In this document: piece by piece, positions 28,035 through 40,000 of the stretch | How the letters are laid out: every line of letters starts with the position of its first letter | Numbering within the stretch: the stretch's first letter is position 1 | From: Patiria pectinifera | Taxonomy: Eukaryota > Echinodermata > Asteroidea > Valvatida > Asterinidae | Reading direction: 5' to 3' | DNA length: 64,000 bases | NCBI GenBank assembly: GCA_029964075.1 | Contig: CM057147.1 | Location: 14,901,513 to 14,965,512, forward strand | Notes under the pieces: generated by a model | What the model was told of the DNA's origin: nothing | Database searches by the model: none | What the model saw: the letters and a program-made list of their open reading frames with translations, nothing else | Position numbers and translations under genes: made by a program

Positions 28035-31000
28035 GTGAATTTAACCGTTTCTGTTTGAATAACAAGCTAAAAACATTCAACAGCAGGCCAGTGGAAATTA
28101 AAGGCCTTAGTTATTCGTTAGTCAATAAAAAAAAGCTTTTCTTACGTGTATCTGTTCCCATGCTCTATGCATGGAGGAGGCTTCCTCCATGCTCTGTGCG
28201 TGTATGTTTACAATGTTCAGTTTGGCGTTTACGCGTCTGGTCCTTTGTCCTTTTATTTGACATGTGATTTGACTTGTGATTTAATTGTGACAGCTCTGAT
28301 CTTTACAGCTATGCATCTTGTGATTTGACTTTTGATTATGTATGCGAATTGATTTGCGTTTTGTCTTCGACAAGCTTTGATTAGAGATCATATGATTATG
28401 AGCATCTCGAATGCATCCTGTGATTTGACTTTTGATTTAATTAACTTTGGATTTGATATGTGATTTGACTTGTGATTTGTCTTGTGTCAACTTAGATCTT
28501 TACAGATTATGAGCATCTCAATTCATTTTGTGATTTGGCTTTTGATTTGACTTTGGATTTTCAATAAGTCTAACTCTTTAGTTGATAGTTTGTGTGGTAT
28601 TTATTAGTCATCAACCAATGACAACAGCGGCTGCAAAGTAAAGGAAAAGATTACATTATGAATCATAGTTCTATATGCCCCCAAGTCTTTGGGAATAACA
28701 AAGGCTAACAATTCTAGGAAGAAAAGATTCCAAAAATGTAACAGACATAACTATAAGTAACCTAAAGAAAAGCACAGATTGCAAAGGCGTGAACAATTAG
28801 CAAAGATCAAAACAAAAATAAGCATAGGTTATAGGAAGTAAACTGTAGCTGTAACTTTGGCTATATAAAAAAAAGTTCAGAGTATATGGGTGTCCTATAG
28901 TTCATCCCGAAGCCTGGCAGGCGGTCGTGACAAGCGAGTGGAGCGGCGAGGGGCAGTCGAGGAGCGGTCCAGGGGTGGCAGATCCACGGTCGGGGCCAGG
29001 TGTTCCTTCAGACCAGGAGTATTGTGTGGCAGAAGGCTGCGGAGTGCACGGGGAACGGAGCCTGGGTGGGACTGGCTATTGGGTGGACGCGCGGTGGCCA
29101 CGGTGGGTGTCACAGGTGAGGTGGGAGTCGGTTCCAAGCCATCCGGGGTTGGAGGATGGTTGGTGCGGGTTGGCTGGGAGACGGCTGGAAGCATCGCAGG
29201 TGGTGTGGCAGAGGTGTCCTGCGGTAACTGGTTGTTGGCCTGCACCAGAGGGGTTGGTTTCGGGTGCTGGCTAGCTTCATGCGACCCCGGCAGCGGAGGC
29301 GTTGGGCCGGGTGCCATCAGGAGGGGCGCGCGTGGAACGACAGGCAAGTACTTCCGCAAGAATCGCCTGTTGCGTAGGGTGACTCGACCAGATCCATCAA
29401 CCCTCACGACATACTGGTCGAATTGCCTCACCGGGTGCGGTCCGGTCTGGTTCTGGATACGCACGCAGTCGCTGACAATCAGTGGCGTGAGGGGACGGGT
29501 GTGCTCTGAGAGACGCTCTGCAGCGCGCATGTGCCGGTTGCGCAGTGCCTCCTCGCGCGATGTGAGTGTCTCCCGCCATGTGCTGTGTGGGTGGTACTTC
29601 CCAGGGTGGATGGGTATGAAGTCACGGATGGGACGCCCGAAGACACACATAGCAGGGGAGAGGTGTGTGTCGTGGTCGGGCGTGTTGCGGTACTGGAGCA
29701 TGGCACGCTGGAATTCATCGGTGTTAAGTGTGCCTTCAGCGTCAGTATTGTCAGTGATGAGGCGCTTCACAGTCTTGACGCCCACTTCAGCACGGCAGTT
29801 GCTGTGGGGGAAGGCGACGGATGAGATGTGGTGACATACGCCCCAGTTGCGGAGGAAAGCGCGGGTGGCCCCGGCGGTGAACTCTGGGCCACCGTCCGAG
29901 GACAGTTCATCGCTGATTCCATAGGTCACAAAGGTGCGGCGCAATGCAGTAATGAGTCCGTTGGCGCCGTTGGCTGCCTGTTCGACGATTGGCCAGTTGC
30001 TGTACCTATCCACCACCACCAGGTAGTGACAGCCGCGGTAGGTGAAGTAGTCAGCGGCAATGCATTGGAATGGGTAATCGGGCTGGACGGGAGGCGTGGG
30101 CGGTGCGCCTGGCTGTGATGGCGCCATACGGTTGCAGGGAGAGCAGCGTGCCCGTGTGTCGGTGATGGCGGGGGTCATACCTGGCCAGAAGAATGAGGAC
30201 TGAGCTCGTGCGCACATCATGGTGACGCTCTGGTGGGCCGAGTGTAGTGCTTCAAGGACCCGGGCACGGAGGGACGAGGGGATGATGATGCGGTCATTGT
30301 AAAGGCATACGCCATCAAACTCTGACAGGTTCTCACGGAACTGGTGGTATGGCCAGGTACGGGGGAGGTCACCGGTGAGAGTGGGGAAGCCCCCTTGTAT
30401 CATCTCAATCAGTCTGCACATGGTGGGATCACTGGATGTGGCGAGGCGGACATCGTTCCATGTGACTGATTTGATCACCTTAGCAGCTGTGGTGGCGGAC
30501 TGACTGCATACTTGGACAGGGTCTGGGCCACTGGTGCGGATAGCAGTAAGGAAGTCATTTGGCAGCACAGTGGTCGTTGGTTCGCTTGAGTCATGGAGCA
30601 CAGGTGCGACATCGTCAGGGAGCTGTAGCGGTGTGCCTTTACCAACAGGGTGGCGGGATACCCCATCAGCTGCAGCGTGGCGTGCACCAGGTATGTGGAC
30701 GATGCGGAAGTGGTAGCGCAGTGACTTCTCCTTGAGGTTGCGGAGGCGAGGGTTTGGGATGTCCTCGAGTGAGCGATCACCGAACACCTTCAGGAGGGGC
30801 TTGTGATCCACCGCCACTATGAGGTCAGAGCAGCCAAGGACAAAGTGGCGGGCCTTGTCAAGTGCATCGATGACAGCAAGGGCCTCCCCCTCCACTGGGG
30901 CGTAGCGGGACTCGGCACCTGAAGTGAAGCGGCTCCTGACCAGAGTCACCCTCCAACCAGTCTTGCAGCAGAAGGGTTTTGAGGAGGAGCAGTCGCAGTG

Positions 31001-34000
31001 CTTCTGGAGCAGCCAAAATCCAAGACCATCTTTGCTCCAGTCAGTTGCAAGGCAGGTCGGCTTGGTCTTGTCGAATATCTCCACCCCTTTGTGGATTTCG
31101 CTGACGATGAGGGCCTTTGATTCCTCGAATAGGCAGTCCAGCTCATCGGTCCACGAGAAGGGGGTACCAGGTTTGAGGAGTTTGCGGAAGGGCAGCATGC
31201 GGTCAGTCATGGCGAAGGCGTAGGAGACCTGGTTGATAAGCCCGAACCAGCTGCGCACGGCTGTGATATTACGAGGCGTTGGGAAATTCTGGATCGCCTC
31301 AAGGTACTCAGGGCAGGGGCGTACAGAGGTTGGGGTGATCTCAAAGCCAGCAAACTTGACAGTCATCTGGGCGAAGGCAAACTTTTTGGGGTTCAAGGTG
31401 ACGCCATGTCTGCCACAAGTGTCGAGCAACTCAACTGCCTGGAAGAAGGCCTCCTCGATGGAGTCAGACCATATCAGGGTATCATCCACGCACTTGGTCT
31501 TCTTCGGGATGTCAGACACAATCTCATCAAAGCGGCGGCTGTAGCCGTCACCGGAGGCGATGTACCCCTGTGGGGCGACACAGTATCGGTAGCGGCCCCA
31601 AGGTGTGATGAATGTGGTGAGGTGGCGGTCCTCCTCAGCTAGGGCAATGCTGTGATACCCGTTCCATGCATCGAACACGGTTTTGCGAGTCTGGGGAGGA
31701 ACTGCACGTGCTTGGTGGAATGGTGATTGTGTGTGGTGGGTCTCACGAACAGCGTGACGATTGAGTGACTGGAGGTCAACCGTCCGTCTGGGCTGGCCTG
31801 ACTTTTTGGGGCAGATTACCATCTTGTGGCACCATGTGACAGGTGTGCCGACTGGGACTGGCTCAATGATGCCGAGGCGGACGTCGCGGTCAAGGCCTGC
31901 TTTTACATTGTCCTGCCAGTGGACAGGGACAGGGATGGGTGTGTGACAGGCGACGGGCCGAGCATCAGGGTCCACCATGAGTCACAGTGGGGGGCCAGCC
32001 ATCATGGGGAGTAGTTGGTGCTCACATACATTGAAGGTGCTCGACTTGTAGTATTCCAGCAGCCACGTCTCAAGCTTCTCCCGGTTCTCCTCAGTGGCTG
32101 GGAACGGGAGGGCTGTTGGAGGAGACGGTGGCATCTGGCGTCTTGGGCACTCGCATGTTGGTGTGAGGCAGGCTGCTGGTGTGGGCGTCGGGGAGGTGGC
32201 AGAGGATGCGACGCTGGCACTGTCGGGCCTGACTGCCTCGCCAATGGTGGGGAACCTGGTAGAGATCATGCCCAGGGCGACGCAGGCTTGCTTAGATAAG
32301 AACAGCCGGTCGGACGAGTCGGTGAAGTATACTATCTGCCGGGTCTCGAGTGTCTCTCCAGATTGGGAGGTGCCAGAGATGGGGAGGACCAGGGCACCTG
32401 CTATGTCGATGCGGCAGTTGTTGGCAGCATTCATTTTCATTGCGACGTGGATGATACACTAGCCCGACTGCGTCTGGCCGTACAGTACTATTTTAGCCTA
32501 TTCCTGATCCTCCAGATCAATGCATACCATGGGATGATCATTGATCAAGGATCGTATTCGTGGCCTTGGATATACAAAAGATGAGGAAGTAGCTGACAGA
32601 ACTCAGAAGTCATAATTTCTCTTCCAGCAGAAAAACCTCAACTCCTGTGATTGTAGACTTTTGCCGTTGAAGACATGGGACGTTCTTCAAAGGACAAGCG
32701 TGACATTTATTATCGCCTGGCCAAGGAGGAAGGATGGAGGGCCCGCAGTGCCTTCAAGCTTCTCCAGATAAACGAGGAATTTAACATATTCAAAGCCGCT
32801 GTTGTCATCAATAAGTCTAACTCTTTAGTTGATAGTTCGTGTGGTATTTATTAGTCATCAACCAATGACAACAGCGGCTGCAAAGTAAAGGAAAAGATTA
32901 CATTATGAATCATAGTTCTATAGATTTGACTTTGGATTTGACATGTGATTTGACTTGTCTCTAGCCACGCCTGATTTGAGTTGATGAACTGACTGAATTG
33001 AGCATCTCAAAATGCATAGTTGTGATTTGAATTTTGATTTGACATGTGATTGGACTTGTGACATCCGAGCATCTCAAAATGCATCTTTGTGACTTGACAA
33101 TAGCATTTGAACTTGTGAGAGACCTCATGCCAAAAAAAAAAGTTCTGCTTCCGATTGTACATGTTATTTGAAAATCGTGTAGGTAGGTAAGAATTTTTTT
33201 TTTTGGCACTTTTTTTGGTGTACGATCATATAGAGGCATCTGCATGTAGTCAAGGGTAAAAGTTAGTAATTGATGGTTTTTGGTGTTTTTCTTCTTCTCA
33301 TTTTTCCATTAAAAAATGTGGGTAGGGGCTGTCAGAATACGGTAGGTAGGGAAACCGGAAGCAGAAATATATCATATTTTTTGGCCTTACTACAATTCTG
33401 ACTGTTACAGATCATGGGCGTCTCACAGCGCATCTTGGGCCAGAGGCTCTTCGGCGTGGCGGCCAGGTGTACGTTCTACGGCCACTTCATTGCGGGGGAA
33501 GGTGAGGCCGAGGCCAGGCGATTGGTGGAACGACACGAGAAACTGGGCGTGGCCACAATCCTGTCAGTAACGGCTGAAGAAGACGTTGGTGAAACTGTAG
33601 GGAGGCAAGTGCACGCCAGACCCCGGCACCTGCTATGTAGTACTGGAACAAAACTAGAACCAATGTAGTAGTCCACTTATGTTGAGTATGAGTAGGCCTA
33701 CTGTGCCATGAGTACGAGTATGAGTACAACTATGAATAGTCATGAATATGAGTACAATTGTACCAATTGTTTTGGAAACAATGTTGCAACCTGACACCAC
33801 TTCAGCGGTTGTGTACAAAGTCTATGGAGAGTCAAGATAATTTTCGAAGTATTTCCTAACAAAATAGGAAGAGTTTCTCAGTCCCAGATTCATGTCTTAT
33901 CGTCATTTTTGCAATGACTGACCTTCATTGAGATGATATATGAAGAAAAAGTGGCGTCAGGTTGCAACAAATTTTTTACCTATTTTCCCTTGAGTACGAG

Positions 34001-37000
34001 TGTCAGTACCAAAAATTGTACTCCAGTACTAGTACAAGTACCGGTACAAGCACAAACACTTTCCACCAGTATATATCAGCAAATTTCAATGGATACGTGC
34101 TTTCAAGGGCTTTGCTGTCAAACTATAAAAACAAAAGCAGAAGCCTCCCAAATCAGTTAAAAACTGGTTCTTTTCCTGCATGTAGATATTCATTTTTTTT
34201 TAAATACGTGTGAGAGAACATTTGCAAGAGTAGTCGAGTACTGTGTCACATGTCATGAGTACGAGTAAAGGGTAATTGGTTACTTTCGAGTAACAGTACG
34301 AGTACATTGTCATATGAGTACATGTATGTACAAAGAAAAGTACTCACAGGTTCAAACCCCATTCCAGTCCATTTCTTTGTTCAACTTCGTAATGCACCTA
34401 GTCAGTACATATTAAGTTTGTCTGAAACCGACTTCTATTTTGGTCAGCTTGAGTAACTCTACATGTAAATACACTTTGGTTTGGTTTGATTCTGAAATTG
34501 TCTAAAACTGGTGTGGATGTGTGACCCCAGTTGATATTTCTCAGTAGTTTTGATTGACCGCTTCATTCATTTATACACACAGCTATGATGAGCCGAGATA
34601 TGACTGCAACGCCAATGGCTACATGCAGTGCATGGATCTCTCGCTGGCATTGTCCAGGAGGTTTCGGCCCGTCAGCCAACTGAAGGTGACTTCGTTTGCA
34701 AAAGCAGATGTCTTGGTGAGTTATTTGGTCCTGCTTATACCCAGGATCCATGCTTGCATGCTTGTCACCACTGCCATTTAAACTAGCTAAAGTAATTGCT
34801 GCAATGCCCAGAACGATTATTCGGTTATTCGATTAATCAGTTGTTCGATTAATCAATCAATTTTATACCAGCTTATTTGCTTACAGATTTCAGTTTGATT
34901 AAAACAGCATAAGATTTGGTCATAAAAAGCTCTAATTTTGTCCTGGACAAGTCACAGAACAGTCATGGATTTCCATTTTTTAGTTGGAACTCTGTTCTTG
35001 CATGCTTCAATCCTAGCCAAATCTCGCTGGGCCCCCAACCCCTGGTCCCTGGTCAATGTTGTCTTTCATTGCGCGGTGTGTGCTCCATCAGCCATTGTGT
35101 GCTCCAACAACATTGACCGAGGGAGCGGGGGGGAGTGGGTGACCGACCGTGGGAGGCTAAGGTTATTTTCAAGTGTCCAAACCATTTTGGCAGGGATTGT
35201 AGCTCCCTGCTTTTTGAAAGGCTTCTACCTTGATGAGTGGGTTTGGTGGTCTTGATTTTTGGTATTTTTTGTTTTATAACATGCGTTTGGATTTCCATTT
35301 TATTGGGAACCCTGTACTTGCGTGCTACCAGTAGCTCCCTGCTTTTGGGCTCTTCTACCTTGACTGTGTTTGGTTGTGTTGATTCATTGTATGTTTCCTT
35401 CTACGTTTTCAGGCCAGAGTGACAGAATTACTCCAAGAAAATAGTTTGCCATATGATAACAACTCTCCACTGGGTGTTGGCAACCTGGCCAAGGGGTTAG
35501 ACGGTCACATGCTCCCCATCCCGGGGCTAAATGAGGCAGAGAACAAGCATCTGAGATTGGTGTTGAAGAGACTCAACGAAATAGGCCAGGTACGTGAGAA
35601 AGCTGATATGCATTTTTATCCCCCTGGCTTTCAAGCCAGACGGGGAGATATTGCGATCGCGTATTCCTTCTGTGTTTCCGTGTGAGTGTGTAAACACCGG
35701 CAGTCGTGGACCTAGGACAAAAGGGATAGTCCACGATTGAAATTCGTGTACAAAACCAATGAGAGCTGTTTCTAAAAAGTTGAGGTACAAACAAAGGAAT
35801 GACGATTAGGGACAACAGAGGGTCCACGATTGCCGGTGTTTGCAAAGATGTGTATGAGTTTGTTTCTGCATTCAATAGGGGACGTCGAACAATAGAGGGC
35901 AATAGGGTCCCAAATTCCTTAGAGGTCCCCAATTTGGATGTGTGTACAAAACATATGGGAGGTCTTCCTAGAGTACAAACAAAAGAGGGACAATAGGGGG
36001 TCCCCGATTGCAGGCAAATACACACTTGTATTTGTGTGTGCCATTTTGGTTAGGTTCACTGTAAGTTCAGTCATCAATCTCAACCAAACCTGAAAATGGA
36101 TATTTACGAGTTCTCTGGAGAGCTCCGCTCATATTACTAAGGCCCAAAAAAAAAAGTCTCCGGTTTCTGGTATGGAGCTTGCCCCAAAAGTGGTGCGGCG
36201 ACGCAGCTTTTTTTTTTTTTTTACCTGTTTTTTTTTTTTTTTTTTGGCTTCAAATGTCGGCTGATGACTGCAAATGGTGCCCGACTAAACTTAGTGCAAA
36301 TATATGGGAGTTCAGAGAGGCCACATAAATCTTATTCTCGATCATTACCCCTTCTAAAAACACGTTAAAATTGTGCAGCAGCAGAATTCCAGTCAAACCA
36401 GTGAGTTTGGCGGTTTTGAAACATCATCTTGTATTGAAAATTTTTTTTTTTCATTTTGCCGACGCGCATGGCTACGGCGACGCGCGCGCATACCAGAAAC
36501 CGGAGACTTTTTTTTTTGGCCTAATGACTCTAACATACGTGTCAGTAGTAGGTCTACTATTAATGACTCTACCGGCTGCAGTGGGAAGGAGAACGCACCA
36601 AGACTCACATGACATTGGGCCGCACGGAGTCCTGTGTCTCACAGAAACTGCCCATTCAACCCAAACAGGGTTCAACTGAGAACTGGTACCTGCCGGGGTG
36701 GACAATCAAGGCCGTCACTGAAAATTGGCCTCACTAACTGCCCGTGTTCCTATTTACAAACTGCCAGGATGTCAGGGGATCGTGCAGGTTTTACTTGCAG
36801 TATTTTTAACCACAATTAAGTTTGGCACATTCTGAATCCATTGCTTGTAATTTCAAATATTTAAATATTGACTCAGCCCTATCGTGTTTACTTTTTTTTC
36901 ACAGCGTGCAATCAAGAACAACGCCCAGCTTCTGGTGGATGCCGAGAAGACCAACATCAACCCAGGAATAACGCTGCTGTGCCTGGCTCTGATGCTGAAA

Positions 37001-40000
37001 TTCAACAAGGAATTCCCTGTGATATGGAACACGTACCAGTGCTACCTGAAGGTAAAAAGTAGTCTAGTTCCCTGACCTGACCTGAATTTTGATGACTTGT
37101 GATGACTTGTGACTGACTTAAGACTGACTTGTGACTGACTTGTGATGACTTGTGATGACTTGGTGACCAACATCGACCCGGGAATAACACTGCTGTGCCT
37201 GGCTCTAATGCTGAAATTCAACAAGGAATTCCCTGTGACATGTACCAGTGCAGACTTGTGATGACTTGTGATGGACTTGAGATTGACTTGTGATGGACTT
37301 GCGATGGACTTGCGATGGACTTGTGATGACTTGTGCTGGCTTTTGATGGGATTGTGATGGCTTGTGGTGGCTTGAGATGGACTTGAGATGGACTTGTGAT
37401 GGACTTACGATGGACTTGTGATGGACTTACGATGGACTTGTGATGGACTTGTGATGGATTTGTGATGGATTTGTGATGACTTTTGATGGCTTTTGATGGC
37501 TTTTGATGGGATGGTGATGGCTTTTGATGGGCTTGAGATGGACTTGTGATGGACTTGTGATGGACTTGCGATGGACTTGCGATGGACTTGCGATGGAATT
37601 GTGATGGACTTGTGATGGACTTGTGATGGACATGTGATGGACTTATGATGGACTTGTGATGGACATGTGATGGGCTTGAAATGGACTTGTGATGACTTGT
37701 TACTGACTTGTGATGGACTTGTGATGGACTTGTGAAGGATTTGTGAAAGACTTAGTGATGGACTTGTGATGGACTTGTGATGGACTTGTGAAGGACTTGT
37801 GATGGACTTATGATGGACTTGTGATGGCTTGTAATGGACTCATGATTGACTTGTGATGGCTTGTGATGACTTGTGACAGACTTGATTACAAGTCTTCTTT
37901 CTTCCCATTAATAGCAAACCATGAACGAAGTCAGAAATGACTTGCAATGGTCTAAAAAGCAAGGCATCTGCTTTGGAGTTAAGATTGTCAGGGGTGCCTA
38001 CATGGATGCCGAGAGGGCCTATGCAGCAGAACATGGGCTTGAAGGTAGGATGTTACAACAGAAGTACAAGTACTCGGAGACCTGCACTTGTACTCGGAGG
38101 TACAACTACTCGTACTGGGTAACCTAAGCACTCTGCAGTACTCGGTACTCAGAAAAAAGTACTTGACTACAACACTGCAAATAAGTCTATACATGGTGTA
38201 TCCGCTCTGTTCACAAGTACCCTCTCACCGGCAAAGAAAGTACAGTTGGGGGTGACCAACCGACCAACCGCCATCTTGCCTGTCTGCAATTTTGTTGCGA
38301 CGCGCGGCCGTACCACTGCGTGTACATAGTACAAATCCCCTGATGTGCGTGCGGCACACACAAGGAACGATGTGCGTCAACCAGCTAAATGTCCCGCCGA
38401 TGGGACGTCGTTGCTAGGTAAAAGGGCGCCCTCTTTCGTTGGCGCACAGAGCCTATAGCGAAAGTATCAGTAGGCATGTGACCGTGAAATTGACCAATTA
38501 GAATTTGAGTTTCATTTTTGAACATGTGACATTACAGTGAGAGTGGCCAATCGACCTGTAGCTCTCGTTTGATAGTTTACTTTGCTTCACCGGTCCCCTT
38601 CCACAGACCCGGTTCATCCAAGCTTCGAGGCTACCAGTGACATGTACAACGCTGTCATTGCTTTTATGTTGAACCACATACACCGGAGCCCGGGCCGATG
38701 TGGCCTGATCGTAGCCACACACAATGAGGAGTCAGTGCTACGGGCGGCGATACGGTAGGCTACTTGCATTAATGCGAACATTAGTGGATAATCTGTGTTA
38801 AATAGACATGGTAACACTGTTTGTAAAAAAAAAAAGGTTTTTTTTTTCAGGTTTAAGGAACAACAACGCAATAAATTGGAAGTCATTATAAAATATTTCA
38901 GCTCAGTAAAATACACAATGTAGGACCTACATTGGAGAAAAACTGCAAAAATGCATCTTCATAATACCAGTCCTAAATTCTGTACAGGGTGAGCCAATTA
39001 AAGCGAAACCCAAATGTCGGGACTATTGTTTTAGTGAAGTTCTGCATGTAGCATTTTCAAAATCTAAGATATGAAAACCCAATTCGTAAGCTTTCTTTTA
39101 GTACAAGAATTATTCAAACCACTCATGTACTTTTAAAGTTATGGAATTTTAAACACAAACCACCGTTTTAAAGTTCTGTCCTCGGATCACAAAAAGTGTG
39201 CGTTCTCTCAGCAAAACAAACACAATTCACACACATACCCTATGTGATTTGTTTTTGTTTTACCGAAAGAATACTTACCTTCTTGAAACTGATTTTGTGT
39301 TCATTGGGTTTATTTGTTTGTTTGTTGATTTGTTTTGTCTTGTAGGATGGAGGAGCTAGGATTGTCCCCCACCTCTGGTGAGGTCATCTTTGGTCAAGTC
39401 TTGGGCCTATCCGACAGAATCACAGTTGCACTCGGTAAAACGAAATAATTAAATTGGTCCGAAAAGAGATTGATAGTTAGGCCGAACAAAAAAAATGGTG
39501 TGTTTACGGTAACCCGACCGACCTGGAATTTTTTCGGCCAAATTGCCGACCTCAAACTTTTTATTGCCATTTTGAAGGTTGATAATTGACAAATTTCAAA
39601 CATTTCAAGTACTTTTAATTATTTGCCACGAACAAAAAACATTTTCCACACTTGAATCTGACCATAATTTGACACAAACATACCTGTGTTAAACGTGCGA
39701 AAATCGCGACGATCTCAAAACTTGAACTCTCAAACTACGAAGTACGATTATTTTTGCACAAACTCATCGCGGTACGCCTGGCTGGCCGACGGACGGCATG
39801 GTTCTCCCCACATATAATACAAACGTGCGTACTGCCTACTGCCCAATACGCTGGAATTGCGGCTGGCCCGCGCGATACGCCGACAAAAAAATGCCGATCA
39901 CATTTTTAGCCCCTGATACGCACAATATAATTATCATACACGTCATTAAAATGCACAATTTGATCGTTACATACGCCATTATTTCAAAATCTTGACCAAA

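Follow-up and report, generated by a model that had tools for sequence, protein, structure and literature searches.

Spliced host exons at the primer-binding site of a Ty3-type LTR retrotransposon in a starfish genome, and a proposed route through a self-primer

How does the 5' end of a cellular gene come to lie, spliced and in antisense, directly behind the primer-binding site (PBS) of a retrotransposon? The question is raised by a 64-kb stretch of the Patiria pectinifera genome (contig C19:14901513-14965512, here called the window), in which a minus-strand long terminal repeat (LTR) element of the Ty3 type, its domains identified with Pfam, encloses a plus-strand piece of the methyltransferase gene FTSJ1. 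Comparing this copy with the resident FTSJ1 gene and with other copies of its family in genome searches over 613.5 Mb (1,020 contigs), we arrive at a reading to which we assign a probability of roughly 0.85: host exons were spliced onto the R region of the element, the resulting RNA primed its own reverse transcription, and the plus strand copied the host tail of that primer and re-joined further downstream, deleting the gag region. Features are listed by window position.

28556..28560, no strand: target-site duplication GATTT, left copy
28561..28675, minus strand: 3' LTR, 115 bp, one mismatch in 115 against the 5' LTR
28676..28690, minus strand: polypurine tract region, sense ..CTTGGGGGCA then LTR; function inferred from position
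28895..31981, minus strand: pol, with reverse transcriptase, RNase H and integrase (RVT_1 among the Pfam families)
31985..32437, minus strand: protease-pol region remnant, with an in-frame stop between remnant and pol
32438..32442, no strand: microhomology of FTSJ1 exon 1 and element at the far junction, CATTG on the plus strand
32443..32580, plus strand: captured FTSJ1 exon 1 (5' untranslated region, UTR), by comparison with the resident exon
32581..32795, plus strand: captured FTSJ1 exon 2 (5' UTR and codons 1-40), by comparison with the resident exon
32796..32807, minus strand: PBS TGACAACAGCGG, with the G of the LTR at base 12, where ordinary leaders have A
32808..32922, minus strand: 5' LTR, 115 bp
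32866..32877, minus strand: self-primer CCGCTGTTGTCA, the presumed R start, within the 5' LTR
32878..32895, minus strand: 3' splice-site-like TTTTCCTTTACTTTGCAG, directly 5' of the self-primer
32923..32927, no strand: target-site duplication GATTT, right copy

The FTSJ1 piece and the element around it

An earlier reading of the window from its letters (the sequence-only reading) had recognised 40 FTSJ1-type codons on the plus strand, and both their identity and their setting hold. The codons (32675-32794) find PDB sequence 8y2o best (E 1.2e-16), named tRNA (cytidine(32)/guanosine(34)-2'-O)-methyltransferase, and also 6jp6 (E 2.3e-14), likewise a tRNA 2'-O-methyltransferase of the FTSJ1/Trm7 kind, these being the human and yeast proteins; they are identified by the resident gene as well, and both LTRs and both GATTT duplications of the minus-strand element surround them. 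The 167 nt first taken as the whole fragment (32628-32794) have two matches in the genome, the window copy and the resident gene at C6:13521683-13521849, where further exons up to about residue 254 were located by tblastn with a human FTSJ1 query sequence; with these two matches only, the suggested spread of the FTSJ1 piece by the element is not borne out. No other significant FTSJ1 exon was found in the 64-kb window, and with the gene on C6 an exon of an intact local FTSJ1 gene is ruled out.

Alignment with the resident gene extended the captured stretch to 32443-32795 and placed its exon ends at 32580/32581 and 32795. The window piece is identical to the resident gene at 212/217 positions and its exon 2 to the resident exon 2 at 210/215, with the protein unchanged. 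On C6, exon 2 lies between ..TATTTTATCACAG and GTGACG, and exon 1 ends in AAAAG followed by GTTTGT, the first bases of a 1,329-bp intron 1 (GTTTGT..CACAG) that is precisely absent from the joint at 32580/32581 in the window. Since intron 1 is missing, the piece derives from spliced sense RNA, contrary to the capture from unspliced or antisense RNA, or by DNA repair, that had been supposed; the splice acceptor once seen before 32628 proved to be exon 2 sequence that the resident exon also contains. The antisense orientation and the termination at an exon end stand, the latter shifted by one base from 32794 to 32795, where captured exon 2 stops at the resident splice donor and the next 12 bases are the PBS, or primer copy.

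Captured exon 1 differs from its resident counterpart by several indels, including a 27-nt insertion of a short repeat present at many places in the genome; within captured exon 1, up to 35 nt of a stretch at 32457-32491 match many genome places, some of them as close inverted pairs. Three candidates were set aside. A second captured protein end (25 residues, 32538-32612) had no match in PDB sequences or Pfam and is FTSJ1 5' UTR; an apparent identity of DNA upstream of FTSJ1 with the element is FTSJ1 sequence up to the CAATG microhomology; and an LTR match of 20/23 inside intron 2 of FTSJ1 (E 0.006 over 21 kb) was taken as chance, although that intron is where an element trapping host transcripts would sit.

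With two LTRs, a target duplication within 4-6 bp, the domain order reverse transcriptase-RNase H then integrase (Pfam, window copy) and a reverse transcriptase near that of Ty3, the window element is of the Ty3 (gypsy) type; among the matches listed for the first 400 aa of pol against solved structures, 4ol8, which we take to be Ty3, comes first and Ty3-G Gag-Pol 7q5b second (E 3.6e-26). Unlike the Tf1/Sushi chromoviruses, to which we therefore do not assign it, the element has in the pol open reading frame of the window copy no match to a chromodomain family of Pfam at E up to 10. The copy is broken, lacking the gag region and a protease-like active-site stretch upstream of the remnant, and an ordinary copy on C14 has one long open frame at that position, in agreement with the proposal that FTSJ1 replaced gag. 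Read by eye, the C14 frame holds zinc-knuckle-like and aspartyl-protease-like stretches; Pfam returned a weak Asp_protease_2 match below cut-off (E 0.01) and no gag family, and the names gag and zinc knuckle follow position and by-eye reading. Where LTR and PBS meet in the same copy (L068), the frame contains an ATG (ATGACAACAGCG), and the self-primer site may also be coding.

Recurrent capture, PBS base 12 and exon ends

At least 37 LTR matches were found in the genome. An exact pattern of LTR end plus PBS occurs at 14 places and two more copies carry one PBS substitution, giving 16 PBS-bearing 5' ends; among the other matches, two are solo LTRs with 5-bp duplications and the remaining 19 were counted as 3' LTRs. 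The 5' ends fall into two classes. Ten read TGACAACAGCG-A and continue into one ordinary leader (one of the ten with a single difference in the 29 nt shown), and six, the window copy among them, read TGACAACAGCG-G (two with one substitution) and continue into six different sequences. PBS position 12 is thus A in 10/10 ordinary copies and G, the base of the R start in the LTR, in 6/6 derivatives. Because a PBS with G at this position is the complement of the R start CCGCTGTTGTCA, the PBS of the six derivatives appears to have been copied from primer RNA, and the sequence behind it would therefore be the 5' tail of the primer.

None of the other copies carries FTSJ1, the other derivatives holding different pieces, and five of the derivative pieces share no 14-mer with the element pieces compared (parts only for C15 and C4; a piece of about 10 nt on C19 was left out). 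Two LTRs and a 5-bp duplication are present in 5/6 derivatives (AAATC, ATGAT, AATCC, ATTCC, TTCAT, in element orientation). All six pieces join R behind the TTTGCAG of the LTR, at the point expected of a splice. The last base of every piece is G, as is the LTR base at that point, so that the joint is placed to within one shared base. At the far junction short homology occurs, CAATG in the window copy and 9 nt in the C4 copy. Three derivatives (L065, L066, L067) measure only about 0.4-0.8 kb, and the capture route may also yield tiny elements resembling terminal-repeat retrotransposons in miniature (TRIM). Separately, L070, L071 and L072 have more than 3 kb in common at 98-99%, flank included, and represent duplicated or nested insertions.

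Source loci were found for 4/6 family pieces and for one piece of a sister family (L091), and in every one the captured end is followed by GT: FTSJ1 on C6 (then GTGACG); C7:32508115-32508224 for the C15 piece (116/123 nt, then GTGAGA); C4:8940590-8940641 for the C4 piece (58/61 nt including the far homology, then GTAATT); C6:23391603-23391656 for the C21 piece (96%, then GTAACT); and C3:17431013-17431131 for L091 (119/119 nt aligned at 97%, then GTTTGT), whose end at a GT had been predicted before its source was found. GT follows G with a frequency of 0.059 in the window, so that 5/5 would arise by chance at about 7e-7, and 4/4 at about 1e-5 when FTSJ1 is left out as the case that suggested the idea. 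Against a 9-base donor consensus, the five donors match at 7, 8, 6, 8 and 7 positions, levels of 6 and 7 being reached by 6.8% and 1.2% of G positions in the window. Orientation is antisense in all five copies with a located source (the sister copy included; C13 and C19 excluded). The same layout in six copies of one family and in one of its sister suggests that capture recurs.

These results bear on the rival that cDNA synthesis jumped to copackaged FTSJ1 mRNA and back, with neither splicing to the LTR nor priming. Such template switching predicts that the mRNA is spliced and that the far junction shows short homology, as found, and LTR-mediated retroposition has been described (PMC8232201). 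From plain template switching we had expected breakpoints unrelated to exon ends, whereas GT follows in all five located sources; nor does it predict the R-derived G at PBS position 12 in 6/6 derivatives, antisense placement at the PBS, or a single join point behind the AG of the LTR. A host exon serving as template would lie in sense, upstream of R; the pieces stand behind the PBS in six derivatives, which argues for a primer and not a template, and we regard template switching as improbable.

A putative self-primer behind a candidate 3' splice site

The family LTR reads ..TTTTCCTTTACTTTGCAG CCGCTGTTGTCATTGG.. (one 3' LTR among the distinct forms listed has GCAT for GCAG). Within it, CGCTGTTGTCA is complementary to the 11-nt PBS of ordinary copies, which does not begin with TGG; judged from this pairing and from a compensating change in the sister family, the PBS appears complementary to the 5' region of the element's own RNA and not to a tRNA 3' end, as expected of self-priming. 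In the predicted fold of R-U5-PBS the primer-PBS helix leads the minimum-free-energy structure (-29.5 kcal/mol, z -4.46), and 0/200 shuffles were as stable.

Directly before the R start, TTTTCCTTTACTTTGCAG followed by CCGCTGTTGTCA would make a good 3' splice site: 15/16 bases at -20 to -5 are pyrimidines, a richness matched by 0.16% of the window's 1,876 CAG sites. U3 comprises only about 45 bp, and the 3' splice site directly before the self-primer is kept in both families.

Over some 460 nt of the protease-pol region the sister family has about 75% identity to the first, and it carries a compensating change in the primer pair: its LTR reads ..TTTCATTGCAG then ACGCTGTAGTCA, given more fully as ..TTTGTGTTTCATTGCAG then ACGCTGTAGTCA, with PBS TGACTACAGCG. 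Among four loci of this identity class, the compensating layout is seen at L012 and L014; L013 has no such feature, and at L015 there is just an inverted repeat of another kind. Exact sister 5' ends number four: L012 and L014 are ordinary, L091 has the PBS then C and other sequence, and L090 is hairpin-like. At L090 (C5:11129325) the PBS is followed by CTGCAACAAAGAAG.. inside an inverted repeat, which may represent either an unspliced U3 tail that was copied or a derivative of hairpin type.

The proposed route, its rivals and known systems

From the spliced FTSJ1 exons, the GT exon ends, the R-derived PBS base, the antisense placement and the recurrence, all read in DNA, we infer a chimeric RNA, its use as primer and a strand jump. 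A host transcript, here FTSJ1 exons 1 and 2, would be spliced onto R at the 3' splice site of the LTR, giving a primer with a host-exon 5' tail, and the chimeric RNA would be packaged. Its R start CCGCTGTTGTCA would pair with the PBS beside the 5' LTR, as in Tf1, and after cleavage behind ..GTCA the RNA with its host tail would prime minus-strand DNA. Plus-strand strong-stop synthesis would then copy the LTR, the primer (yielding the PBS) and the tail to the 5' end of the RNA, and this run-off end would re-join the minus strand at a short downstream homology, losing the gag region, before the product is integrated with a normal target duplication. The exons would lie antisense right behind the PBS because they formed the 5' tail of the reverse-transcription primer.

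Several observations weigh against this route. Two of the six family pieces have no located source: the C13 piece (101 nt) matches only itself in the genome, and the C19 piece of about 10 nt is too short for a source search. The four sources other than FTSJ1 are putative exons by virtue of the GT alone. Captured FTSJ1 exon 1 is clearly divergent from the resident exon 1, probably as another allele. No 3' LTR turned up in the 7 kb examined of the C21 derivative, which leads into repeat DNA. At L010 (C7:1963388-1968619) the 5' LTR is without U3, its first base being that of the R start (LTR position 46), and the sequence upstream has two other copies, 90-91% identical, whose match extends 2 bases beyond the junction; this speaks against splicing at L010, a copy that the proposed route leaves unexplained. 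In the sister family the R base equals the leader base at position 12, which makes the base-12 test blind there, and the splice tract is weaker (12/16 pyrimidines, reached by 5.2% of window CAG sites). Transcription initiation is another possible role of the GCAG before R. No cis trap was seen, the nearest same-contig family LTR, among the at least 37 matches, lying over 4 Mb away from every one of the four family sources. Finally, the support for splicing and priming is drawn from DNA sequence throughout.

The distance of family LTRs from the sources leaves two ways of making the chimeric RNA: either the insertions that trap host transcripts are rare and not represented in the reference, or the joining took place in trans, host donors being spliced to element RNAs that carry the 3' splice site close to their 5' end. 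The trans version is favoured by that same distance and by the outron-like position that the splice site would have near the presumed RNA start, yet rare insertions missing from the reference would explain the same facts, and animals seldom trans-splice ordinary host donors. Splicing in cis, from an element in a host intron, is likelier, and the trans version is one we doubt.

DNA-level rearrangement, in which broken LTR elements were mended with genomic fragments, would suit the C21 copy that runs into repeat DNA; the intact duplications in 5/6 derivatives speak against it, and the exact removal of FTSJ1 intron 1 contradicts it for the window copy, so that we consider it very improbable. An assembly artefact is no likelier, since copies on different contigs have a common layout and no sign of the feared assembly join was seen.

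Self-primed LTR elements (Tf1/Tf2 and Tj1 of fission yeasts, for Tj1 PMC4600332; the Sushi group) resemble the starfish element in a PBS complementary to the 5' segment of their own RNA; ordinary copies here have 11 pairable bases and the primer-PBS helix, and the Tf1 primer we take to be 11 nt. Unlike Tf1-type elements, the starfish element places a candidate 3' splice site right in front of the self-primer and shows foreign tails repeatedly. In LTR-mediated retroposition, or the capture of host genes by LTR elements (reportedly a subject of Tan et al. 2016 as well), intron-less host sequence lies between two LTRs with a target duplication (PMC8232201), likewise here, host intron removal being seen in the FTSJ1 piece only, through its intron 1; by contrast, the starfish pieces are 5' exons, antisense, fixed at the PBS and ending at a splice donor, and we explain them by the primer instead of by switching on copackaged mRNA.

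Copying of a primer by plus-strand synthesis has a precedent in Moloney murine leukaemia virus (MLV) circular DNA, where a retained tRNA primer was copied (Colicelli and Goff 1986, as described in PMC12220202); unlike that case, mRNA exons stand here at the PBS of integrated copies, and recurrently. According to PMC13191261, 1-methyladenosine at position 58 (m1A58) in tRNA primers limits plus-strand copying to 18 nt of primer, and unmodified tRNA is copied to its 5' end, giving a product absent from those listed as active in transfer. An mRNA self-primer would lack the m1A58 stop, so that its tail could be copied to the 5' end of the RNA and normal transfer disturbed; the absence of the full-tRNA copy from that list fits such a disturbance. 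Cer1 carries an SL1 acceptor, yet trans-splicing of its 8-kb RNA was not found (PMC3315495). No description of host exons on a self-primer was found in the literature covered, mostly titles and abstract openings (PMC4558846 included). Within the literature covered, the self-primed LTR element and LTR-mediated exon capture are known kinds, and a splice-fed self-primer with a host tail would be new.

If right, the proposed route would give retrotransposons a specific and repeatable means of taking up host exons, and would account for four traits of the piece: its antisense orientation, its origin from a 5' end, its splicing and its fixed place at the PBS. It would expose a cost of self-priming: without a modified base to stop primer copying, anything spliced before the primer can enter the genome. 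Its products, first exons of host genes copied in antisense next to an LTR, might give rise to small RNAs that target host genes, and PBS base 12 together with a foreign exon makes a simple signature searchable in other genomes. More tentatively, the LTR may be a built-in promoter trap, the element routinely obtaining its genomic RNA from host first exons spliced onto R; as splicing would set the self-primer exactly, any host promoter could then drive replication, and exon-tail capture would be a visible by-product.

Beyond the element, exon-like stretches on the plus strand (33409-35590), which to our eye resemble proline dehydrogenase, have the element upstream and antisense; three of them had no match in Pfam. 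An array of 11-bp repeats (TGACTTGTGATG-like) occupies 37073-37883, and the element has related 12-bp GATTTGACTTGT repeats on either side.
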